Part shown: positions 33,637 through 46,216 of the stretch, one piece after another
How positions within the stretch are numbered: the first letter of the stretch is position 1
Layout: every line of letters starts with the position of its first letter
From: an uncultured bacterium
GTDB taxonomy: Bacteria; Pseudomonadota; Gammaproteobacteria; Burkholderiales; Burkholderiaceae_E
Length of the DNA: 64,000 nucleotides
NCBI GenBank assembly: GCA_903907905.1
Contig: CAIVPX010000171.1
Span: 41,381 to 105,380, forward strand
Direction: 5' to 3'
Position numbers and translations under genes: made by a program
The notes under the pieces: generated by a model
What the model saw: only the letters and a program-made list of their open reading frames with translations
Told to the model about the DNA's origin: nothing
Databases searched by the model: none

Positions 33637-34536
33637 TCAGGCCTCGCCCGAAGCCTTCTCCGAAGTACGTCCTGCGAGTAGCGCCACCAGTTCGGGCACC
33701 AGGGCCAGAGGGCTCGCCTCAGCGGCGGCTCTGGCGAGTGTGCCGGTGACGGCCTGAGCGATGGCACGTTCGGCGTTCGAGTCTTCGGCCATCTGGCTGT
33801 AGTAGCTCAGATCCTTGTGCGCATTGCGAATCGAAAACTGCAGACCGCCCGGGTCACCGCTCAAGAGGAAGGGTTTGAGCCGGTCGAGCGCTGCGCCCCA
33901 GCCGCCGCCCCGGGCCAACACATCGACAAAAGTTGCTGCCGGCACGCCCGATTGCTCGGCACAGGCGGCCGCCTCGGCGATGAGGGACACCGTTCCGAGC
34001 GAGACAAAGTTGTGCAACAGTTTCATCCGGTGCCCGGAACCCACCGGGCCCGCATGGAAGATGTTCTCGGCGAAGCACGACAGCAGGGGACGGCAGCGTT
34101 CCAGCAGCGCGGCATCGCCGCCCACCAGCAGGTTGAGCCGGCCTGCGGCCGCATCCTGCGGCAAACGCGTCATGGGCGCATCGAGAAACTCGCCGCCCGC
34201 TGCGCGGACGGCGGCCGCCATCCGCTCGGTGGACGAAGGAATGGCAGTCGAGCAGTCGATCACGATCGTACCCGGCCGCATGCCTGCGAGCACGCCGTCG
34301 GGGCTGGTCAATACAGCCTCGACCTGGGGGCTGCCGGTGACGCACACGAAGACCACCTCCACCTCGGCTGCCAGTTGACGTGCGCTGCCACGCGTCTGCG
34401 CGCCGGCAGCCAGCAGGGCGTCGAGGGATTGGTTGCCGGGGTGGTCCAGGATGCGCAAGGCGTGGCCGTGCTTGATCAGGTTGGCGGCGATCCCAACGCC
34501 CATCATGCCGGCGCCAATCAGTCCGAGGGTGCTCAT
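33637..34536 (-). CDS. 3-hydroxyisobutyrate dehydrogenase-like NAD(P) oxidoreductase
   Basis: 299 residues. GLIGAGMMGVGIAANLIKHG is the dinucleotide motif, DCSTAIPSSTERMA and FLDAPMTRLPQDAAAGRLN the substrate loop, and GSGHRMKLLHNFVSLG carries the catalytic Lys (K in HRMKLLHN) of beta-hydroxyacid dehydrogenases. Relatives act on 3-hydroxyisobutyrate, tartronate semialdehyde, L-threonate and similar acids. It is last in the TRAP-linked minus-strand operon, 17 bases after the SDR stop. The substrate-loop motif is DAPMTR instead of the usual DAPVSG, which suggests a divergent specificity. Confidence 0.9.
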   Translation of the reverse strand: MSTLGLIGAGMMGVGIAANLIKHGHALRILDHPGNQSLDALLAAGAQTRGSARQLAAEVEVVFVCVTGSPQVEAVLTSPDGVLAGMRPGTIVIDCSTAIPSSTERMAAAVRAAGGEFLDAPMTRLPQDAAAGRLNLLVGGDAALLERCRPLLSCFAENIFHAGPVGSGHRMKLLHNFVSLGTVSLIAEAAACAEQSGVPAATFVDVLARGGGWGAALDRLKPFLLSGDPGGLQFSIRNAHKDLSYYSQMAEDSNAERAIAQAVTGTLARAAAEASPLALVPELVALLAGRTSEKASGEA

Positions 34537-34553: not shown

Positions 34554-35294
34554 TCAGCCCAGCACGTAGCCGCCGTCAGCAATCAGTGTTTCGCCCGTGA
34601 CATAAGACGCTGCCTCCGATGCGAGAAACAGGGTCATGTTGGCGACTTCTTGCGCACTGCCCCAGCGACCCAGCGGGACTCGGGCCAGCCCGCGGTCGCC
34701 CTGATAGCCGGGTGCAGCCGTTTGCTGAGTCATGCGGGTGAGCGATCGGCCGGGGGCGAGACAGACCACACGCACGCCATGCGGACCCCATTCCACGGCG
34801 GCGGCCTTGGTCAGTTGCGTGACCGCCGCTTTGGCTGCGGCGTACACCGCGCGATTCTCGCCCGCGCAAAAGGCGGTTTGCGAACCGATCGATACGATGA
34901 CACCGTGCCGCTGAGCGACCATCTTTCGGCCGAAGTGCTGCATGAGCAGCAGAACGCCGACCAGATCGGTATCGAGCATCAGCCGGATGTCGGCTTCCGT
35001 GGTCTCCAGCAGTGGCTTGGCCACCAAGGCGCCGGCATTATTGATCAGCACATCGACCGAGCCGGCCTGCTCGGACAGGCGCTCGATCGAGCGCGGATCG
35101 GTTTGATCGAAGACGCAGGCCTGGGCGCCGAGTTCATCGGCCAGTGTCGCCAAGGGTTCGGCCTCGATGTCGGCGAGTACGAGTTGCGCACCGCGCGCGT
35201 GGAAGCTCTGTGCGATGGCCCGGCCGAAACCGTTGGCCGCCCCTGTGACCAGCACGCGCCGGCCGGTGAAATCGAGCGCCTGTTCGATCATCAT
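34554..35294 (-). CDS. SDR family oxidoreductase
   Basis: 246 residues from ATG 35294; the track start at 35891 is spurious. TGAANGFGRAIAQ is the cofactor motif, VDVLINNAGALV the NNAG motif, VIVSIGSQTAF gives the catalytic Ser and YAAAK the Tyr/Lys. LADIEAEP after strand 2 indicates NAD preference. It lies 5 bases after the epimerase gene and 17 before the hydroxyacid dehydrogenase, so all three oxidoreductases are probably steps of one route for the TRAP substrate. Confidence 0.9.
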   Translation of the reverse strand: MMIEQALDFTGRRVLVTGAANGFGRAIAQSFHARGAQLVLADIEAEPLATLADELGAQACVFDQTDPRSIERLSEQAGSVDVLINNAGALVAKPLLETTEADIRLMLDTDLVGVLLLMQHFGRKMVAQRHGVIVSIGSQTAFCAGENRAVYAAAKAAVTQLTKAAAVEWGPHGVRVVCLAPGRSLTRMTQQTAAPGYQGDRGLARVPLGRWGSAQEVANMTLFLASEAASYVTGETLIADGGYVLG

Positions 35295-35299
35295 GTTCG

Positions 35300-36223
35300 T
35301 CAAAGTCCCATGCGTTCGCGCACCCATCGCAAGGTGTGCGAGGCACCCTCGGCGAGGGACACACGTGGCGAAAACCCGAGGTCGCGGCGTGCGGCCTCGA
35401 TACTCATCAGGCCAATGCCGAAGCTGTTGAGGGCCGAGGCCTGCGGATCGGCCTCCAGACGCGCGGCGGGCAGGCACTGCCGGACGGCTGCCTCGACGTC
35501 GGCGAGCGTATGCGTGGCGCCTGGTCCGATGTTGTAGCTGCGTAGCGCCAGTGTGGGGGTGTCGAGCGCGGCGATGACCGCATCGACGACGTCGTCGACA
35601 TAGACGAACTGACGGGTACGCGTCGGATCTTCGCGAAAGCGTGTGACCCGCCCCTGCAAGCCATTTTCGAGGGTAGTCCGGATGACGCAGTCGGTGACTC
35701 GCCCGGGTCCGTAGCAGCCCGCGACCCGCAGCGATACGGCATCGACCCCGTGCTGGGCGTGATAGGCACTGATCAGGGCATCGCCCGCTGCCTTGGTCGC
35801 ACCGTAGACCGTTTGTGGCTTGAGTACCGTATCTTCGGTGATGACGGGGAGCCCTGGGTGTTCGCCATAGGCCACCACCGAAGAGAAGCACACCACGCGA
35901 CGCAGTCCGTGAATACGGGCAGCCTCGAGCAGGCCAGCCACACCGCCGATGTTGATGTCACTGACCCGGGCCGGCGCGTCGCGCAGCAACATGGGGCCCG
36001 AGACCCCGCCCGGATGGACCACATGCGTGATACCAAATCGCCGGATGGCCTCGTGCCAGCGCTGCGGATCGGGCAGGTCGTGGGTGATGACCGGGAAGGG
36101 CGAATGGGCCGGCACGCGCTGATCCATGCCGACGAGATTGCGTCCGCCCTTCAGCAGGCGTTGGGCCACCGCCTGACCAATCAGTCCGCCCAGTCCGGTC
36201 ACCAGGATGGTTTCACTGCTCAT
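35300..36223 (-). CDS. NAD-dependent epimerase/dehydratase family protein
   Basis: 307 residues, extended SDR. ILVTGLGGLIGQAVAQRLLK binds NAD; catalytic Ser and the YxxxK pair are in VVCFSSVVAYGEHPG and YGATKAAGDALI. FVYVDDVVDAVIAAL is a typical C-terminal block. Relatives in sugar-acid loci with TRAP importers include the tetronate dehydrogenase/epimerase group (DenD-like); here this is only a suggestion because kinase partners of that pathway are absent. It is encoded after dctM with a 51-base gap. Confidence 0.87.
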   Translation of the reverse strand: MSSETILVTGLGGLIGQAVAQRLLKGGRNLVGMDQRVPAHSPFPVITHDLPDPQRWHEAIRRFGITHVVHPGGVSGPMLLRDAPARVSDINIGGVAGLLEAARIHGLRRVVCFSSVVAYGEHPGLPVITEDTVLKPQTVYGATKAAGDALISAYHAQHGVDAVSLRVAGCYGPGRVTDCVIRTTLENGLQGRVTRFREDPTRTRQFVYVDDVVDAVIAALDTPTLALRSYNIGPGATHTLADVEAAVRQCLPAARLEADPQASALNSFGIGLMSIEAARRDLGFSPRVSLAEGASHTLRWVRERMGL

Positions 36224-36274
36224 GGGCGGACGTTCCTCAGGGCGGCGACGGGGTTCAGGTGATCGGGCTGCTGA

Positions 36275-37567
36275 TCAGTTGACCGGCATCAGCAGGTCGG
36301 GCAGCCAGGTGGTGAGTTCGGGGAACACGGTAATGAGTGCCAGGGTGACCAGCATCGTGAGAAAGATGGGCCACATTTCCTTCCAGAACTTCATCATGGA
36401 GATGTCAGCCATGCGGCACAACAGGAACATGGTGAGGCCGTAGGGCGGCGTGACCAGTCCGATAAGTAGCGTGAACACGGTGATGACGCCGAAATGCACC
36501 TCATCGATGCCCAGTGCCTTGACGGTGGGCAGCAGCAAGGGTACGAACACCAGAATGATGGGGACGGTATCGAGCATGCACCCCAGTGCAAGGTAGATCA
36601 GGATGACGATGCAGAGAAATACGATGGGGTCGGCCGACATGCCCGTCATCCAGTTGGCCAGGCCGTCGGCTGCACCGTAGAGCGTCAACACGCGGCCAAA
36701 GACTGCAGCGGCGGCGATGATGAGAAAGACCGAGCCCATGGTTCGGGTGGTGGTCAAGACCTGGCGGGCGAACGAGGCCGGCGTCATCTCGCGGTAGAGC
36801 AGTCCGCCCACGACAATCACGGCCAGGACACCCAGGACCGCCGCCTCCGTCGGTGTGGCGATGCCGCTCAGAATGCTGCCCAGAACCACCACGGGAATGG
36901 CCAGTACTGGCAGGCCGTTGACCGTGGAGCGCACGCGCTCGCCCATGCTGGCCTTCGGTTCGCGCGGATAGTTGTTGCGACGGGCGACCACGTAGGCCTG
37001 CAGCATGAGCAAAAGACCCAGCAAGGCGCCGGGGATGGCCCCACCCAGAAACAGTCGGCCCACCGAGGCTTCGGTCGCTGCGGCATACAGGATGAAGGCA
37101 ATGGACGGGGGGATGAGCGGGCCGATCATGGCGGCGCCGGCGATGATGGAGGCCGCGTAGGCGACCGGGTAGCCAGCCCGCTTCATGGCTGGAATGAGCA
37201 GCTTGCCGGTGGCGGCCGCGTCAGCCAGATCGGAGCCCGACATACCGGCCATGACGATGTTGACCGCCACGCTGACGTGCGCCAGGCCGCCCGCGATGTG
37301 TCCGATCCAGGCGCGCGCGACATTGACCAGACGCTGGGTGACCCCCGAGGCCAGTGCGAGGTCCCCCATCAGGATGAAGAAGGGGATGGCCAGCAGCACG
37401 AAGTGATTGACGCCCTGCCACATGGTGGTGGGGAGCGTGGAGAGGTTGATCGCGGAGGGCGCGAACACCATGCCCACCAGCGAGGCGCCAATCAGCGTGA
37501 TGGCGATGGGCACGCGCAGCGCGAACAGCGTGAAGAAGACAATGATGATGAGGGTGAGTCCGTCCAT
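36275..37567 (-). CDS. dctM: TRAP transporter large permease (DctM)
   Basis: 430 residues, about twelve hydrophobic segments. Motifs are FVLLAIPFFILMGDLALASG, VMAGMSGSDLADAAATGKLL and IPAMKRAGYPVAYAASIIAG, followed by GPLIPPSIAFILYAA. It is the sodium-coupled membrane subunit of the second TRAP system in this window and is preceded by dctQ, 15 bases upstream, the standard order. It is similar to, but clearly different from, the dctM at 27253. Confidence 0.94.
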   Translation of the reverse strand: MDGLTLIIIVFFTLFALRVPIAITLIGASLVGMVFAPSAINLSTLPTTMWQGVNHFVLLAIPFFILMGDLALASGVTQRLVNVARAWIGHIAGGLAHVSVAVNIVMAGMSGSDLADAAATGKLLIPAMKRAGYPVAYAASIIAGAAMIGPLIPPSIAFILYAAATEASVGRLFLGGAIPGALLGLLLMLQAYVVARRNNYPREPKASMGERVRSTVNGLPVLAIPVVVLGSILSGIATPTEAAVLGVLAVIVVGGLLYREMTPASFARQVLTTTRTMGSVFLIIAAAAVFGRVLTLYGAADGLANWMTGMSADPIVFLCIVILIYLALGCMLDTVPIILVFVPLLLPTVKALGIDEVHFGVITVFTLLIGLVTPPYGLTMFLLCRMADISMMKFWKEMWPIFLTMLVTLALITVFPELTTWLPDLLMPVN

Positions 37568-37582
37568 GGGCGCGCCTTGCTT

Positions 37583-38182
37583 TCAGATGTCGACCGGCTG
37601 GCCGCCGGCACGAATCGGTTCATCGCTGAAGCGCTTGACGAGCAGCGCCAGCGAGTAAAGGATCATCAGCCCGCTGGTGACCGGAATCGAGTAGGCAAAA
37701 ATGGACAGCGGCAGCCCGAGCGAAATCGAGGTCATGATGTCGAGGGCGCGCGCATTGTTCCAGCCCCACCAGGCGATGGGCGCCAGCAGGCCCAGGGTGA
37801 TCAGATCACCGATCACGAGCAGGATTCGCTTGCCTGCCATGGGAACCAGATCGAATACCGCCGACATGCTGATGTGTTCGTCCGTACGCTGCAGCACTGC
37901 GGCGGCCCAGAGCGTGGCCCACACCATGACCAGGCGCCCGGCTTCCTCCGTCCACGGCATCGAGTAGTCGTCGGGCAGCACGTAGCGCGCGACGACCTGC
38001 ACGGTGGAGGTGGCGAGCATCATGAGCATGAGAAAGAGGCTCATGGAGTTTTCGGCATGCCGCCAAAGGCGCGCGGCCACCGGCAGTTCAGTCGCGTCCT
38101 GCCGAACCGCCCAGGCGAGCCAGAGGGCGAGCAGGATGCAGGCTCCCGTCAGGAGTTTCAGTTCGAGCGGGGTGGGCATCAT
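37583..38182 (-). CDS. dctQ: TRAP transporter small permease (DctQ)
   Basis: The ATG at 38182 overlaps the hydrolase stop (ATGA), giving 199 residues; the track start at 38206 is not needed. Four or five hydrophobic segments; the DctQ core is YSMPWTEEAGRLVMVWATLW with the conserved Glu pair and Trp. The N-terminus has an extra hydrophobic segment (LLTGACILLALWLAWAV), longer than the DctQ at 28553. Partner of the following DctM. Confidence 0.9.
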   Translation of the reverse strand: MMPTPLELKLLTGACILLALWLAWAVRQDATELPVAARLWRHAENSMSLFLMLMMLATSTVQVVARYVLPDDYSMPWTEEAGRLVMVWATLWAAAVLQRTDEHISMSAVFDLVPMAGKRILLVIGDLITLGLLAPIAWWGWNNARALDIMTSISLGLPLSIFAYSIPVTSGLMILYSLALLVKRFSDEPIRAGGQPVDI

Positions 38183-39033
38183 CGCTTGAGTTCCTCGGCC
38201 CGCCAATTACCCCAACGCCCGGCGTCCACGGCGGCCAGGAAATCAGAGACCAGCAGATTGAACAACATAGGTTCTTCGAAATTGAGGGTATGACCGCACA
38301 TGGGCAGCATGGCCAGCCCGGCGTGCGGTGCGCTGTCACGGATGAGCCGGCCGGCTTCGTGGGCGGGGAAATCCTGGTCACCCATCATCACCAGAATGGG
38401 CAGCGCGAGCGTGCGCAACTTGTCGACCAGAGCGGTGATCGGCAGGCGGTCGACCAGGGTGATGCCCATCATCTTTTCCGCGCCCTTGGGGTCGAGTTCG
38501 GCGATCATGGATACGAACTTGTTCCAGCCAATCGGGTCTTTCTGTTTGAAGATGACGCGTTGCGGGGCATTGGCGATGGCATCGACCGCCGCCTGACTGC
38601 CTCGGGCGCGGATGTCGGCGGCCATGTTCCGTGCGCCGGCCAGCCAGTTTTCGCGATCGCTGGTGCCAGCGCCCGCGCCGGCCACCACCAGTCCGTGCAC
38701 GCGCTGAGGGTGGGCGAGGGCGAAGTTCAGGGCGACATTGCCGCCGGTTGCGAGCCCTGCAATGTGGGCGCGCTCGATGCCCAGCCCGTCAAGCAGGTGC
38801 TTGAGATCGTCGATCAGGTGCTGGTGCGTCCAGGCCGAATCGTCGTTCGGCACGCTCGAGGGCGGGTAGCCGCGGTTGTTGTAGACGATGACGCGATAGC
38901 GCTGGCCGAAGTGGCGAACCTGGGGCTCCCAGGCCCGCAGGTCGGTGGCGTACTCGTGGCAGAACACCAGCGGCCTGCCGCTGCCGCTGGTCTCGTAGTA
39001 AAGCTGGACGCCCGGGGCGTTGAGGAGGGGCAT
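38179..39033 (-). CDS. alpha/beta hydrolase fold protein lacking the nucleophile Ser
   Basis: 284 residues. The fold is clear: PLVFCHEYATDLRAWEPQVR (oxyanion loop), YNNRGYPPSSVP, the Asp in VMMGDQDFPA and His in MCGHTLNFEE. The nucleophile elbow, normally GxSxG, reads GLATGG with Ala95; the DNA codon is GCA, so it is not a reading slip of the track. A paralogue at 42660 in the same locus keeps GLSMGG. The protein may be non-hydrolytic (binding, isomerising or regulatory) or use another residue. It is co-translated with dctQ and lies downstream of the TRAP receptor. Confidence 0.9.
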   Translation of the reverse strand: MPLLNAPGVQLYYETSGSGRPLVFCHEYATDLRAWEPQVRHFGQRYRVIVYNNRGYPPSSVPNDDSAWTHQHLIDDLKHLLDGLGIERAHIAGLATGGNVALNFALAHPQRVHGLVVAGAGAGTSDRENWLAGARNMAADIRARGSQAAVDAIANAPQRVIFKQKDPIGWNKFVSMIAELDPKGAEKMMGITLVDRLPITALVDKLRTLALPILVMMGDQDFPAHEAGRLIRDSAPHAGLAMLPMCGHTLNFEEPMLFNLLVSDFLAAVDAGRWGNWRAEELKR

Positions 39034-39107
39034 GGAATTGGCGAGGGCTGCCGCGCACCGCCCGAGCGCGCGGGGCGGGGCGGGGCGACAGGCCTCTCGG
39101 GGTCAGA

Positions 39108-40094
39108 TTAGCGCTGGGCCTCGACCACTTCGCGGATCAGATCGGCACCCACCATGGTTGAGAAGAAGGTGTGCACACCCTTGGTCGCTGCCTCGAAGGG
39201 CGCGCGGTCGGGGCGGATGATCTTAACGCCGTTCTTTTCCATGAGCGCGATGGCATCTTCGTTGGCCTTGGCGGCGCCCGCCCGCATGGTTTCACCCGCG
39301 GCACGCGAGGCTTTCAGGATGATCTCCTGATAGGCCGGTGACAGCGACTGGAACTTCTTCAGGTTCATGACGTAGACCGTGGCCGAGAAGATGTGGTCGG
39401 TAACCGCCAGGCTCTTGGCCACCTCATACAGCTTGGAGTCGCCCATACCGTGGTAGTTGGTTTCGACGCCATCGATGGTTTTTTGCTGGAGCGCGGTGTA
39501 CACCTCGGGCCAGGCCATGGGCACGGGGTTGCCGCCGAGGGACTGCAGGGTGCGCACGTACAGCGCATTTTCGATCACCCGGATTTTCTTGCCCTTCATG
39601 TTGGACGGCTGGGTGATGTCGGTGCCGTTCATGAGAAAGCCGCGGAAGTCCCACACGCCCCAGGACAAGCCTTTGATGCCTTTGGCCTCGAGCGTACCCA
39701 GCACGCGCGTGCCGATCGGGCCGCTGAGCACCCGCCAGGCCGCGTCGCGGTCTTTCCAGATGTAGGGCAGTTCGGTGACGCTGAAGGTGGGCTCGATGGC
39801 GGCGACGATACCCGAGCCGTTCATCGCGATGTCGAGCGTGCCCAGCCTGACCTGAGACAGCATTTCGAGTTCACCGCCCAACTGACCGTTGGGAAAGAGT
39901 TCGATTTCGATCTCGCCATTGGACAGTTGACGGGCCGTGTCGGCGAAGGCCTTGCCGCCTTGGCCTGCAATCGCCGCGGCAGAGGTCACATGACCCAGAC
40001 GCAGCTTGAGCTTGGGTTGGGCGCAGGCTTGGAACGAGGCAAACCCGACGAAGGCGGACGCGAGGGCGGCAATGGCCCATCTGGACTGGCGCAT
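39108..40094 (-). CDS. dctP: TRAP transporter solute receptor (DctP)
   Basis: The start is placed at ATG 40094, 7 bases after GGGAG; ATG 40118 is the alternative. 328 residues with the signal MRQSRWAIAALASAFVGFAS, cleaved after QACAQ. DctP blocks are LRLGHVTSAAAIAGQGGKAF, FPNGQLGGELEMLSQVRLGT, GKKIRVIENALYVRTLQSLG (ligand-binding Arg) and GVETNYHGMGDSKLYEVAKS. It is the first gene of the minus-strand TRAP operon, divergent from the amidase; 74 bases separate it from the hydrolase gene. Confidence 0.93.
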   Translation of the reverse strand: MRQSRWAIAALASAFVGFASFQACAQPKLKLRLGHVTSAAAIAGQGGKAFADTARQLSNGEIEIELFPNGQLGGELEMLSQVRLGTLDIAMNGSGIVAAIEPTFSVTELPYIWKDRDAAWRVLSGPIGTRVLGTLEAKGIKGLSWGVWDFRGFLMNGTDITQPSNMKGKKIRVIENALYVRTLQSLGGNPVPMAWPEVYTALQQKTIDGVETNYHGMGDSKLYEVAKSLAVTDHIFSATVYVMNLKKFQSLSPAYQEIILKASRAAGETMRAGAAKANEDAIALMEKNGVKIIRPDRAPFEAATKGVHTFFSTMVGADLIREVVEAQR

Positions 40095-40178
40095 GAGGAG
40101 GCTCCCGGTGTTGAGCATGACCGCTTACGGTGACGACGGTCGTTGATCTTAAAAAGGTACCCGAACTTAAGGGACAAG

Positions 40179-40193
40179 CGTGATCACGTCAAG
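40179..40193 (-). promoter_or_regulatory. candidate operator/promoter upstream of dctP
   Basis: A perfect 10-bp palindrome CGTGATCACG (40179-40188) overlaps a minus-strand TTGACG (-35-like, 40192-40187) in the 254-base divergent region between dctP and the amidase gene. The -10 at 17-base spacing (TAAGTT) is poor, suggesting a regulated promoter. No regulator is encoded in this locus. Confidence 0.35.
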
Positions 40194-40348
40194 CGAGGAT
40201 GACTCGTGAAGCCCCGGGGGCGGTCTAACGTACTTTTCTGTGTGCGATGGCGGTGCGCCATGCCCTCGTTTCGGGCGCGGTTGCATCGCGTGTACAGTCG
40301 CGTTCGATTGAAGTAAGGTTCACCATCATTTTCTGAAGGACCCCACGC

Positions 40349-41632
40349 ATGCGCAGAGAACCCCACTCATTGACCGCCAGTGAAGCGGTTGGGTTGATGG
40401 CCGCGGGGTCGCTCACCGCCGAGGCGCTGGCCCGCAGCTGCCTCGACCGGGTGGCCGAGCGCGAGCCCGGCCTGCATGCCTGGGCCCATATCGACCCGGA
40501 TGCGGTACTCGATGCAGCCCGCCGGGCCGATGCATCCACGCGGCGAGGGCTGCTGCACGGCATCCCCGTTGCCTTCAAGGACATCATCGATACCTGCGAC
40601 ATGCCGACGACGTATGGCTCGCCCATTTACGCCGGGCATCGGCCGGTGGCCGACGCGGTGTGCGTGGCGCTGTCGCGCGAGGCGGGGGCTATCGTGATGG
40701 GCAAGACCGCCACCACCGAGTTCGCCTACCGGCATCCCAGTGCCTGCGTCAACCCGCACAACGCGGCGCACTCGCCGGGGGGGTCGTCCTCGGGGTCGGC
40801 GGCGGCGGTGGCCGATTGCATGGTGCCCCTGTCGGTCGGCACGCAGACGAGCGGCTCGGTGATCCGACCTGCCGCCTACTGCGGGGTGCACGCCATCAAG
40901 CCCACCTACGGTGAATTCAGCTTCATCGGCGTGCGACACCTCGCCGAATGTCTCGATACGCTGGGCTGCATGGGCCGCAGCGTGGAAGACCTCGCGCTGT
41001 TCAGCGCGGTGCTCCAGATGCGCGAATACCGTCCGGTGGGCGAGGGCCTGTCGCGGGCACCTCGTCTGGCCGTGTATCGCAGCGAGTTGTGGGATCAGGC
41101 GCAGCCGGCGGCGCGGGAGCAGTTTGAAGCGCGCCTGGCCCGTCTGTCGCGCGCGGGTGCGGTGCTGACCGACGTTGCCATGCCCGGGCGCGATCAGAAA
41201 CTGCTGGATGCCTGCTGGGCCGTCACCAAGTTCGAGGCCGGTCGTGCGCTGATGCACGACTGGCGACACAAGCCCGACCTGATGTCGCCGGCCGCCCGTG
41301 CGCTGGTCGAGGACGGCAAGGCGATCGGGCTTGATGCCTACCACGCCGCCATGCGCGAGATCGAGCAGGGCCGGGCCGATCTGCAATCGCGGCTGGGGGG
41401 CTTCGATGCCACGCTCACCTTGTCCTCGGTCGGCGAGGCGCCTCACGGACTGAGCGACACGGGTCCGGTGCTGTTCAACTATCTCTGGACGCTGGCCTGG
41501 ATGCCCGCGCTCAATTTGCCGGTCATGACCGGGCCGGCGGGCTTGCCCATGGGTTTGCAGGTCATTGGTGCGCCCCATGGCGAACAGGCCCTGCTGCAGG
41601 TGGGGCGCTGGATCGAACGTCAGATCGCCTGA
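40349..41632 (+). CDS. amidase signature enzyme
   Basis: 427 residues, with AAGGA 9 bases before the ATG. Full catalytic set: Lys77 in GIPVAFKDIID, cis-Ser146 in SPGGSSSGSAAA and nucleophile Ser170 in GTQTSGSVIRPAAYCG. The TQTSGS variant replaces the usual TDxGGS and is common in allophanate-hydrolase-like and other small amidases. It is divergent from the TRAP receptor and begins the amidase / TauD-like / hydrolase operon, so an imported amide is a plausible substrate. Confidence 0.9.
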   Translation: MRREPHSLTASEAVGLMAAGSLTAEALARSCLDRVAEREPGLHAWAHIDPDAVLDAARRADASTRRGLLHGIPVAFKDIIDTCDMPTTYGSPIYAGHRPVADAVCVALSREAGAIVMGKTATTEFAYRHPSACVNPHNAAHSPGGSSSGSAAAVADCMVPLSVGTQTSGSVIRPAAYCGVHAIKPTYGEFSFIGVRHLAECLDTLGCMGRSVEDLALFSAVLQMREYRPVGEGLSRAPRLAVYRSELWDQAQPAAREQFEARLARLSRAGAVLTDVAMPGRDQKLLDACWAVTKFEAGRALMHDWRHKPDLMSPAARALVEDGKAIGLDAYHAAMREIEQGRADLQSRLGGFDATLTLSSVGEAPHGLSDTGPVLFNYLWTLAWMPALNLPVMTGPAGLPMGLQVIGAPHGEQALLQVGRWIERQIA

Positions 41633-41646
41633 CAGGAGTATTGCGA

Positions 41647-42633
41647 ATGAACACTATCGACGCTGCCGCCCCGGTCCCCTACGCGGCGCGCATCAGCGAC
41701 CGCCTGGCCTGGACCCGCGATCAGGTCAGCCCTGCCGACTGGCTCATCACCATGCCCGAGCGGGCGCTCGACGAGATCGAGCAGGTCATCGATATTCTTC
41801 GCGCCAATCCCATGGATGTGCGGGCGCTTTGCCTGGACGACTATCCGCTCGAGGCCTGCCGCGAACTGATGGGCCAGGTGCGGCGGGTGCTCGATGAGGG
41901 CGTGGGCATGGCCGTACTCAATCGTCTGCCCGTCGAGCGCCATAGCAAGGAGGCACTCACCGCCATCTACTGGCTGCTGTCCTCGATGATCGCCCGCCCG
42001 GTGGCGCAGTCTTTCGATGGCCGCCTGCTCTACGATGTTCGCGACACGGGGCTCAAGACCTCGACCCGGGTGCGCAGTGATCTCACCAACCAGGAGATCT
42101 CCTGGCACAGCGACTACGGGTTCAACTTTCCACCGCCCTATCTCGGACTGCTCGTGCTCAGGGTGGCGCGCGAAGGTGGCGTCAGCAAGGCAGCCAGCAT
42201 GATGACCGCGCACAATGTTCTGCACGAGCGTCGCCCTGATCTGCTGCAGCGGCTCTATGTACCGTTTTACTGGAACCGGCAGGGCGAGCACCCCGAGGGG
42301 GATCCGGTTACGCATCGTTATCCGGTGTTTCAGATGGAGGGGGGGCGCGTACGCTCGCGCTTCAACCCGGCGCTGATTCCGGTGGGCTATCGCCTCATGG
42401 GGCTCGAGCCCGATGCGCTTGGCCTGGAATCCTTGCGCGAGGTAGGCAGCATTCTGTCGGACCCGGCCCATCACATCAGCTTCGTGCTCGAGGCCGGGCA
42501 GATTCAATACGTCAACAATTTTCGGCTCGCACATCTGCGCACCGATTTCGTCGATTACGACGAACCCGATGCCAAGCGGCATCTTGTTCGCATTTTTCTG
42601 CGCGACTCAGGTCGTCGCAGCTACATGGGCTGA
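41647..42633 (+). CDS. TauD/TfdA-like Fe(II) oxygenase
   Basis: 328 residues from ATG 41647 after CAGGAG. The iron-binding HxD motif is SWHSDYGFN (His154, Asp156), and the C-terminal part YVNNFRLAHLRTDFVD gives the distal His plus a following Arg (HLVRIFLRD) for 2-oxoglutarate, as in the TauD/TfdA superfamily. These enzymes hydroxylate an aliphatic carbon using 2-oxoglutarate and O2, often cleaving a C-S, C-O or C-N bond. It is 14 bases after the amidase and 26 before the hydrolase. The substrate is not determined; the family is diverse and 2-oxoglutarate use is assumed. Confidence 0.85.
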   Translation: MNTIDAAAPVPYAARISDRLAWTRDQVSPADWLITMPERALDEIEQVIDILRANPMDVRALCLDDYPLEACRELMGQVRRVLDEGVGMAVLNRLPVERHSKEALTAIYWLLSSMIARPVAQSFDGRLLYDVRDTGLKTSTRVRSDLTNQEISWHSDYGFNFPPPYLGLLVLRVAREGGVSKAASMMTAHNVLHERRPDLLQRLYVPFYWNRQGEHPEGDPVTHRYPVFQMEGGRVRSRFNPALIPVGYRLMGLEPDALGLESLREVGSILSDPAHHISFVLEAGQIQYVNNFRLAHLRTDFVDYDEPDAKRHLVRIFLRDSGRRSYMG

Positions 42634-42659: not shown

Positions 42660-43544
42660 ATGGCTTATGCAGTGACCGACGATGGTGTGCGCCTCTACTA
42701 CGAGACGACCGGCGAAGGCATCCCCATCGTCTTCATTCACGAGTTCGCGGGCGACCTCACCAGTTGGGAGCCGCAGGTTCGGCATTTCTCCCGGCGCTAC
42801 CAGTGCGTGACCTTCAATGCTCGCGGCTACCCGCCCTCCGACGTGCCCGAGAAGTCTTCGTCGTACTCGCAGCAGCGCGCCGTCAAGGACATCATTGCGG
42901 TCATGGATGCCCTGCAGTTGTCCAAGGCGCATCTGGTCGGATTATCGATGGGCGGCTTCGCTACCCTGCACATGGGCATTTCCCACCCCGAGCGCGCGCT
43001 GTCACTGTGCGTAGCGGGCTGCGGCTATGGGGCTGAGCCTGAGAAGCGCGCGCATTTTCATAAAGAGTCCGAGGCGTCCGCTGCGATGCTGCTCGAACAG
43101 GGCATGGATGCTTTCGTCGAGCGCTATTCGCTGGGGCCGACGCGTGTGCAATTCCAGAACAAGGATCCGCGCGGCTTCGAAGAATTCAAGCAGGCTTTCA
43201 AGAAGCACTCGGCGCTCGGGTCGGCCAATACGCAACTGGGTGTTCAGCGCGAGCGGCCCTCGCTCTTCGAGTTGCGCGAGCAGATCGCGGGTATTCGGGT
43301 GCCTACGCTCATTCTCAATGGTGACGAGGACTGGCCCTGCCTGTTGCCCGGGCTCATGATGAAGGAAGCCATTCCGACGGCGGCCATGTCGGTACTGCCC
43401 AATGTGGGGCACACCATCAACATCGAGGCGCCCGATGCCTTCAATCGGGAGTTGGGCGATTTCGTGGCCTGGGTGGACAGCGGGCGCTGGCCGGTTCGCG
43501 ATCCCCGGGCGATGGTGAAGTCGCTGCTCGGCATGGTCAAGTAG
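42660..43544 (+). CDS. alpha/beta hydrolase (intact triad)
   Basis: 294 residues with CAGGAG upstream. PIVFIHEFAGDLTSWEPQVR, the elbow LVGLSMGGFATLHM (Ser96), Asp in LNGDEDWPC and His in LPNVGHTINIEA give a complete Ser-Asp-His triad. It is clearly paralogous to the Ala-elbow protein at 38179: both share WEPQVRHF and RGYPPS at matching positions. Esterase, enol-lactonase or C-C hydrolase activity is possible. It closes the plus-strand half of the TRAP-linked locus. Confidence 0.9.
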   Translation: MAYAVTDDGVRLYYETTGEGIPIVFIHEFAGDLTSWEPQVRHFSRRYQCVTFNARGYPPSDVPEKSSSYSQQRAVKDIIAVMDALQLSKAHLVGLSMGGFATLHMGISHPERALSLCVAGCGYGAEPEKRAHFHKESEASAAMLLEQGMDAFVERYSLGPTRVQFQNKDPRGFEEFKQAFKKHSALGSANTQLGVQRERPSLFELREQIAGIRVPTLILNGDEDWPCLLPGLMMKEAIPTAAMSVLPNVGHTINIEAPDAFNRELGDFVAWVDSGRWPVRDPRAMVKSLLGMVK

Positions 43545-43921: not shown

Positions 43922-46216
43922 GTGCAACCGGCCCTGCGTGATCTGGTGCTGGTGGGCGGCGGGCATGCCCATGTCGGTGTGCTGCGGCGCTTTGCGATGC
44001 AACCTGAACCGGGGCTTCGCATCACACTCGTCAGCCTGAGCGCGGACACGCCCTATTCAGGCATGCTGCCGGGGCATGTCGCCGGACACTACAGTTGGGA
44101 CGAGGTGCATATCGATCTGGACCGCCTGTGCGTCTTTGCCGGGGCACGTTTCGTGCGCGCCGAGGTACTGGGTCTTGACCGCTCGGCCCGGCGCGTTCGT
44201 CTGTCGGGGCGGCCCGATCTGGCCTACGATCGCGTGTCGATCAACATCGGGTCGACCCCTCAGTTGCAAGGCACACCCGGTGCCCGGGAGTACGCCATTG
44301 GCGTCAAGCCCATCCATGATTTCAATGAGCGCTGGCGGTCGCTGCTGCAGCGCGTTCGAACCCATTCCGGCGCGCTGCGGGTGGCGGTGGTGGGTGCGGG
44401 GGCGGGCGGGGTCGAACTGCTACTGGCGATGCAGTGGCGCCTGCGCGCCGAGAGGCGGGCTCAGGCTCAGGATCCGGACTCGCTGCACTTTGCGCTCTAC
44501 AGCGCCGATCCGGTCATCCTGCCCACGCATTCCGGCTCGGTCAGGCGGCACTTTGAAGACACCTTGCGAGCCCGAGGGGTCGAGGTGCACACGGGCCAGC
44601 GGGTGCTGGCCGTCGAGGCGGGGCGACTTCTGTGCGACGGGCAATGGCGCGAGCACGACGAGATCGTCTGGGTGACGCAGGCGGGCGGTGCCGAGTGGCT
44701 TGGCGACACCGGACTCGAGCTCGACGATCGGGGCTTCATCCTGGTCAACGCCTGCCTTCAGTCGGTGAGCGATTCGCAGGTTTTTGCCGCCGGTGACGTT
44801 GCCAGCATGACCGGCAGACCGCTTGAAAAGGCGGGGGTCTTTGCGGTACGCATGGGCCGGCCGCTGGCCGACAACCTGCGGCGCTCGCTGCGCGGCGAGG
44901 CCTTGCGGCCCTACCGCCCGCAGCGCCACTGGCTGTCGTTGATCAGCACGGGCGATCGGCATGCTGTCGCGTCCTGGGGGCCCTTTGGCGTGTCGGGTGA
45001 ATGGGTGTGGCGCTGGAAGGATCGGATCGACCGCCGTTTCATGCGCCGCTTCTCGCCATTCGATTCGTCGCCCGACCGCATGGCGGTCTCCTTGGGGGAC
45101 AGCGGGCACAGGCTCGAACTCGGGCCCGACGAATCCGCGCAGGCACTGTCGCTGCTCGCCATGCGCTGTGGGGGGTGCGGTGCGAAGGTGGGCGCGTCGG
45201 TGCTGTCACGCGTTCTGGCGCGACTGCGCCCCTTTGTGCGCGATGACGTCGTGCTCGGCCTCGATGCGCCCGATGATGCGGCGGTGCTCAGAGTGCCGCC
45301 CGGGCAGTTGCTGGTGCAGACGGTGGATTTTTTTCGGGCCTTCATCGAAGACCCCTACGTGTTTGGCCGAATTGCTGCGAATCACGCGCTCAGTGACATC
45401 TTTGCGATGGGCGCGCGGGTGCAGAGCGCGCAGGCGCTACTCACCGTTCCCGCCGGCCTCGATACCCAGATCGAGGAGTTACTGGTGCAACTCATGAGCG
45501 GTGCGCTGTCAGTGCTCAACGAGTCGGGGTGTGCGCTGGTGGGGGGGCATACGGCCGAGGGCAGCGAACTGGCGATGGGTTTTGCGGTGAATGGCTTGAT
45601 TGACGAGTCCATGCAGGGGCTCATGCGCCGCAGCGGCCTCAGACCCGGCGATGCGCTTGTGCTGACCAAGCCGCTGGGCACGGGCACGCTGCTGGTGGCG
45701 CGTGCGGCGCTGCGCGCGCGCGGCCGGTGGATCAGCGCAGCACTCGAGTCGATGCAAGTCTCCAACCGGCAAGCGGCGCGCTGTCTTGTCGAGCATGGCG
45801 CTGGCGCCTGCACTGATGTCACGGGCTTCGGGTTGCTGGGCCATCTGGTCGAGATGACACGCGCCAGCGGGGTTGATGCCGAATTGTGGCTGGGCGATTT
45901 GCCGCTCTTGCCCGGCGCGCTCGAAAGCGCCTCGGCGGGCTGGCTCAGCTCCTTGCAGCCGGGCAATCTGCGCCTGCGCACGGCGCTTGTCGATCATGAC
46001 GCTTACGCGGGCGACCCCCGCTTTGCGCTTCTTTTCGATCCTCAAACCTCCGGCGGATTGCTGGCCGGGGTGCCGGCTGATCAGGCCTCGGCTTGCGTGC
46101 AGGCCCTGCGAGTTCGGGGCTATGCTGGGGCGACGATCATTGGCCAGGTGCGCGATCGCGATGATTCGAAGGCGCCGGTGACGCTTACCACCAGCGTTGC
46201 CCCACCCACTCCTTGA
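43922..46216 (+). CDS. selD: fused FAD oxidoreductase - selenide, water dikinase
   Basis: 764 residues in two parts. Residues 1-380 are a type II NADH-dehydrogenase-like flavoprotein: LVLVGGGHAHVGVL (FAD site), VAVVGAGAGGVELLLAM (NAD(P) site) and VFAAGDVASM. Residues 400-750 are SelD, with RCGGCGAKVG holding the catalytic Cys (about 419) and Lys, TVDFFRAFIEDPYVFGRIAA and GGHTAEGSELAMGF. SelD makes selenophosphate for selenocysteine or 2-selenouridine. The fusion is known in some bacteria, where the flavoprotein may produce selenide. The start is GTG 43922. No selA, selB or selU is in the window. Its last 32 bases overlap the convergent YdcF-like gene. Confidence 0.93.
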   Translation: MQPALRDLVLVGGGHAHVGVLRRFAMQPEPGLRITLVSLSADTPYSGMLPGHVAGHYSWDEVHIDLDRLCVFAGARFVRAEVLGLDRSARRVRLSGRPDLAYDRVSINIGSTPQLQGTPGAREYAIGVKPIHDFNERWRSLLQRVRTHSGALRVAVVGAGAGGVELLLAMQWRLRAERRAQAQDPDSLHFALYSADPVILPTHSGSVRRHFEDTLRARGVEVHTGQRVLAVEAGRLLCDGQWREHDEIVWVTQAGGAEWLGDTGLELDDRGFILVNACLQSVSDSQVFAAGDVASMTGRPLEKAGVFAVRMGRPLADNLRRSLRGEALRPYRPQRHWLSLISTGDRHAVASWGPFGVSGEWVWRWKDRIDRRFMRRFSPFDSSPDRMAVSLGDSGHRLELGPDESAQALSLLAMRCGGCGAKVGASVLSRVLARLRPFVRDDVVLGLDAPDDAAVLRVPPGQLLVQTVDFFRAFIEDPYVFGRIAANHALSDIFAMGARVQSAQALLTVPAGLDTQIEELLVQLMSGALSVLNESGCALVGGHTAEGSELAMGFAVNGLIDESMQGLMRRSGLRPGDALVLTKPLGTGTLLVARAALRARGRWISAALESMQVSNRQAARCLVEHGAGACTDVTGFGLLGHLVEMTRASGVDAELWLGDLPLLPGALESASAGWLSSLQPGNLRLRTALVDHDAYAGDPRFALLFDPQTSGGLLAGVPADQASACVQALRVRGYAGATIIGQVRDRDDSKAPVTLTTSVAPPTP

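Follow-up and report, generated by a model that had tools for sequence, protein, structure and literature searches.

A genus-wide alanine at the nucleophile elbow of an alpha/beta-hydrolase-fold protein encoded between dctP and dctQ of a TRAP operon

We analysed a window of 64,000 nucleotides from an uncultured bacterium. It contains an eight-gene block (34554-42633) in the order SDR, epimerase, dctM, dctQ, ABHala, dctP, then the divergent amidase and TauD genes. ABHala is an alpha/beta-hydrolase-fold (ABH) protein with Ala at the nucleophile elbow, and ABHser is its Ser-bearing paralogue. HIBADH (33637-34536) borders the block on one side and the ABHser gene on the other. The features are as follows.

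34554..35288, minus strand: SDR oxidoreductase, one end of the eight-gene block (NCBIfam SDR models; synteny)
35300..36223, minus strand: NAD-dependent epimerase/dehydratase (Pfam Epimerase, 4e-44)
36275..37567, minus strand: dctM, TRAP large membrane subunit (Pfam DctM, 1.7e-112)
37583..38182, minus strand: dctQ, TRAP small membrane subunit (Pfam DctQ, 2.7e-26); its ATG overlaps the ABHala stop
38179..39033, minus strand: ABHala, alpha/beta-hydrolase-fold protein of 284 aa with Ala at the nucleophile elbow
38749..38751, minus strand: ABHala codon 95, GCA (Ala) in place of the family Ser (Ala in 5/5 in the genus versus Ser in 53/53 outside)
38371..38373, minus strand: ABHala codon 221, Asp (GDQD), which with His248 makes up the retained dyad, invariant in 58/58 sequences
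38290..38292, minus strand: ABHala codon 248, dyad His (CGH), likewise retained and invariant in 58/58 sequences
39108..40118, minus strand: dctP, TRAP substrate-binding protein, co-oriented with ABHala and upstream of it (Pfam DctP, 6e-74)
40349..41632, plus strand: amidase-signature enzyme, divergent from dctP (Pfam Amidase, 3.4e-68)
41641..42633, plus strand: TauD/TfdA-type Fe/2OG oxygenase, the other block end (Pfam TauD, 9.1e-30)
42660..43544, plus strand: ABHser, paralogue with elbow GLSMGG, outside the block in congeners

As read from the window, the ABHala frame starts with ATG and has no internal stop. The protein matched Pfam Abhydrolase_1 with 71 bits against a gathering score of 25.8, and all five orthologues of the genus matched this model. 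Two AlphaFold models were made, which give the fold and do not place the changed residues; that of ABHala was moderate (pLDDT 70, pTM 0.74), such that the fold is readable and the pocket geometry is not. A nucleophile-His-acid triad is typical of the alpha/beta-hydrolase superfamily, though not universal. In ABHala it is incomplete: His and Asp are present, and the nucleophile position is Ala in all five genus members. The original prediction of an Ala-for-Ser elbow with Asp and His kept was confirmed, since the elbow (G93-L94-A95-T96-G97-G98) reads GLATGG with codon GCA, D221 lies in GDQDFP and H248 in CGHTLN. The paralogue at 42660 was likewise found to be intact, with elbow GLSMGG and the counterparts GDEDWP and VGHTIN. 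ABHser and ABHala are 38% identical over 269 aa (E 3e-72).

Each of the five sampled genomes of the genus contains one ABHala orthologue. The four congeneric ones were recovered by an alignment-based scan of the genome contigs (a single-sequence scan recovered none), and their named records represent separate MAGs. One of the closest orthologues comes from a MAG whose record, CAMBZS010000051.1 (L052), is titled Bordetella parapertussis; the title looks wrong, and the record falls in the same genus as environmental Burkholderiales/Betaproteobacteria MAGs. The four orthologues are 66-69% identical to ABHala of the window. We checked whether they share the Ala, and all four do, with the elbow GQATGG; Ser-bearing orthologues were looked for in the congeners and not found. 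For the Ala, the window uses GCA and the other orthologues GCC. Pairwise dN/dS was ≈ 0.05-0.20 with dS up to ≈ 2, approximate values because dS is near saturation in several pairs. The ABHala frame is under purifying selection. The shared Ala, the synonymous codon change and the low dN/dS exclude a sequencing error or a recent inactivating mutation, for which we found nothing in favour and which we consider negligible given an Ala common to five separate genomes with differing codons. A dS of up to ≈ 2 between species sharing the Ala further rules out an assembly error.

Wherever the contigs permit checking, ABHala lies between dctP and dctQ. The ABHala TGA and the dctQ ATG overlap at 38182, as ATGA in the window and as TGATG in the three congeners checked, and the proposed coupling of ABHala to dctQ thus holds at the sequence level. 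The gap between dctP and ABHala is below 10 bases in the one congener whose junction was read. The order from epimerase to TauD is the same in three congeners (G001, G002 and G003), and G002 also has the SDR gene; the contig of the fourth (G004) ends inside ABHala, with the dctP-amidase-TauD side present. The constant company of ABHala is amidase, TauD, epimerase, SDR and the TRAP genes. On one side the congener block is flanked by kynureninase, LysR and GST genes (L041:2139-17559, L039), and the other flank in G002 (L041) carries DapA-like, D-hydantoinase and nitrilase-type genes. The window genome lacks any kynureninase match at E <= 1e-40, so this gene does not belong to the core block. The same result weakens an anthranilate or quinolone pathway, which we had considered by analogy with the dioxygenase HOD (see below) from the amidase neighbour and the congener kynureninase. 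Relatives of TauD also occur on plasmids, where their neighbourhoods were uninformative.

The two ABH genes were described as flanking the TRAP receptor/amidase region on opposite strands. This is true of the window and, as far as the contigs show, not of the congeners. In three congeners HIBADH and ABHser are neighbours, flanked by the same outer genes, and in the three congeners whose Ser-paralogue locus was read the gene lies on a different contig from the block, next to HIBADH and selD. The notion that the two paralogues belong together is therefore not supported. The adjacency in the congeners implies that the block was moved whole, either into or out of this site; no clear direct repeat was found at its borders in the window. 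As the block lies between HIBADH and ABHser in the window genome, the proximity of ABHala and ABHser is no evidence for a complex, and a paralogue complex read from proximity is weakened because the block separates genes that are neighbours in the congeners. To judge from the contigs of the congeners, the closeness of ABHala and ABHser is a one-species accident. Beyond ABHser, the window carries a 764-aa ORF (43922-46216) in which, judged by sequence, a domain like NADH dehydrogenase is fused to selenide water dikinase (SelD); its place is conserved in congeners.

Specific to this genus, ABHala is a highly diverged paralogue of an uncharacterised family of serine-dependent alpha/beta-hydrolases (HEF, RGYPPSDVP, GLSMGGFATLHFG), with which it shares ≈ 40-45% identity over the full length. 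The closest matches outside the genus are ≈ 45% identical to ABHala, and all carry Ser. The five Ala proteins group as a single clade (100/100) in a 58-protein tree, with a very long stem of 2.08 changes per site; the elbow Ser is present in 53/53 other aligned homologues and in none of the five, a split that is not due to chance. No Ala members were found outside the genus among the matches listed from 399 genomes of the order, 369 of the class and 399 of the phylum and among the plasmid matches, a sample that rare distant cases could escape. The Ser family has 44 invariant positions (at least 52/53). The Ala clade keeps 35 of them, including H26, E27, R159, R196, D221 and H248, and differs from the family at nine, the nucleophile and eight others (53, 68, 95, 96, 180, 184, 188, 193 and 197; substitutions include Y68W, S95A, M96T, H180L and Q193L). 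Seven of the nine changes group at the elbow (95, 96) and in the C-terminal half of the cap (180, 184, 188, 193, 197), the rest being 53 and 68. If the changed residues line the pocket, the pocket would have been remodelled with the acid-base pair retained. That the nucleophile and its presumed surroundings changed while dyad and fold were kept suggests altered chemistry more than decay.

The operon of ABHala is a TRAP operon, whereas the Ser-type family occurs, for example, in an aminotransferase-SDR-ABH-M20 cassette. A third, Ser-type paralogue on another contig of the window genome (L051:8117-12206, G000:C59) lies in such a cassette of aminotransferase, SDR, ABH and M20 hydantoinase/carbamoylase genes, with an ABC transporter gene near. 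The cassette is conserved across alpha- and betaproteobacteria and is also found at plasmid loci (L090, L092, L093).

Without the elbow Ser, the usual acyl-enzyme cannot form. The fixed Ala, the evidence of purifying selection and the conserved place of ABHala between dctP and dctQ argue that it was retained for a role that would do without a Ser acyl-enzyme. The retained role of the original prediction thus stands, and its non-hydrolytic nature is likely only, since the intact His-Asp dyad could either activate water or take a proton from the substrate. The reading that we put first, at a probability of roughly 45%, is that ABHala may be an enzyme using the His-Asp dyad as general base on an imported compound. 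This proposal builds on conservation and precedent: the Ala in 4/4 orthologues, dN/dS of ≈ 0.05-0.20, the 35/44 invariants, the operon position and the cofactor-free dioxygenases HOD and AqdC. Several points count against it. The His-Asp pair may also be retained as a structural legacy, and at comparable dS ABHala evolves faster than its Ser paralogues. HOD and AqdC are absent from the nearest PDB sequences and folds, and the AlphaFold model is moderate (pLDDT 70). The main alternative is that a catalytically dead ABHala is kept for binding, for example to sense or sequester the imported solute, or as a holder for a partner enzyme or for the cytoplasmic face of DctQ/DctM; we judge this tenable and somewhat improbable. 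In its favour, the universal nucleophile is lost together with family-invariant polar residues, and the placement between dctP and dctQ with overlapping stop and start codons fits as well. Non-catalytic ABH-fold proteins do exist; DPP10 is described as an inactive peptidase (PMC4350108). However, Asp221 and His248 are conserved in 5/5 despite up to 34% divergence, and a pure binder need not keep both; moreover, only the operon neighbours are conserved as partners, as the Ser paralogue does not travel with ABHala.

ABHala might also still be a hydrolase, either because His248-Asp221 activates water directly or because Cys25, Cys246 or Thr96 replaces Ser95. The dyad is intact, and all three candidates are invariant in the Ala clade, where the Ser family has V/L/I at 25, mostly T/S/A at 246 and M at 96. 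Nevertheless, in the canonical ABH fold the elbow residue alone is positioned for attack, Thr96 occupies the oxyanion-hole position, and Cys246 is present in three Ser-containing homologues too. We consider continued hydrolysis quite unlikely.

In the dyad-enzyme reading, cytoplasmic ABHala would act on a compound imported by the TRAP transporter, probably a carboxylate, if its substrate is indeed the TRAP solute. The general base would be His248, polarised by Asp221, and the changes S95A, M96T, H180L and Q193L would have lowered the polarity of its pocket at the elbow and the cap. Proton-transfer chemistry (isomerisation, a lyase reaction, decarboxylation or oxygenation with O2) would then replace Ser-mediated hydrolysis, as in HOD/AqdC. 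ABHala has been kept and repurposed, and it probably acts in the breakdown of the compound imported by the operon's transporter. It is also conceivable, though we think it rather unlikely, that in this genus a serine hydrolase encoded within a TRAP uptake operon was independently converted into an enzyme with a His-Asp general base; if true, this would be a second origin of a natural "hydrophobic elbow", separate from HOD/AqdC, with a new reaction on an imported compound. Ser-to-Ala elbows in cofactor-free quinolone dioxygenases helped to show how the hydrolase fold turns to O2 chemistry. A second, separate conserved Ala elbow, alongside intact Ser paralogues of the same genome, makes a compact test system in an environmental bacterium. 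Since only nine of 44 family invariants differ, the residues that set the new role apart from hydrolysis can be listed and put to the test.

Among known systems, the best sequence and fold matches of ABHala are PcaD, Est816 and other esterases. PcaD (3-oxoadipate enol-lactonase, TIGR02427) is the best NCBIfam match (E 1.2e-33), and 2XUA is the best Foldseek match; in contrast to PcaD, ABHala lacks the nucleophile Ser and scores 116.5 bits against a curated cut-off of 255.85. Proteins like DPP10 have the hydrolase fold without hydrolase activity, and the examples found are eukaryotic. Our searches turned up no non-catalytic ABH protein that has Ala and is encoded in a TRAP operon.

The closest documented precedent is that of the cofactor-free dioxygenases HOD and AqdC. 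In these, His-Asp is the general base and Ser is dispensable, AqdC naturally having Ala; AqdC is an accepted member of the alpha/beta-hydrolase superfamily without the nucleophile Ser, and the acidic partner in HOD is Asp126 (PMC10548524). ABHala resembles them in its ABH fold, His-Asp dyad (H248, D221) and Ala95 elbow, and Cys25-His26 lies at the N-terminal site matching Cys37-His38 of the HOD pocket. Unlike HOD with its Asp126, which follows beta-6, ABHala keeps the canonical Asp221; its own D126, located beyond a GAGT loop, does not vary within the Ala clade. HOD and AqdC are 3-hydroxy-4(1H)-quinolone 2,4-dioxygenases, whereas no quinolone pathway is evident for ABHala. They were not among its 60 best PDB sequences, its 18 profile matches at 1e-15 or its 50 best folds. 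An Ala elbow is already known in the superfamily, and the sequences and papers searched contained no other separate, genus-wide case within a TRAP operon. In a pairwise comparison, ABHala was weakly similar to the N-terminal half of HOD (31% over 91 aa, E 3e-7); the HOD fragment used as query matched PDB 4cfs at 100%. With PcaD and esterases as nearest matches and weak similarity to HOD, ABHala may work like HOD/AqdC but is not filed with them.
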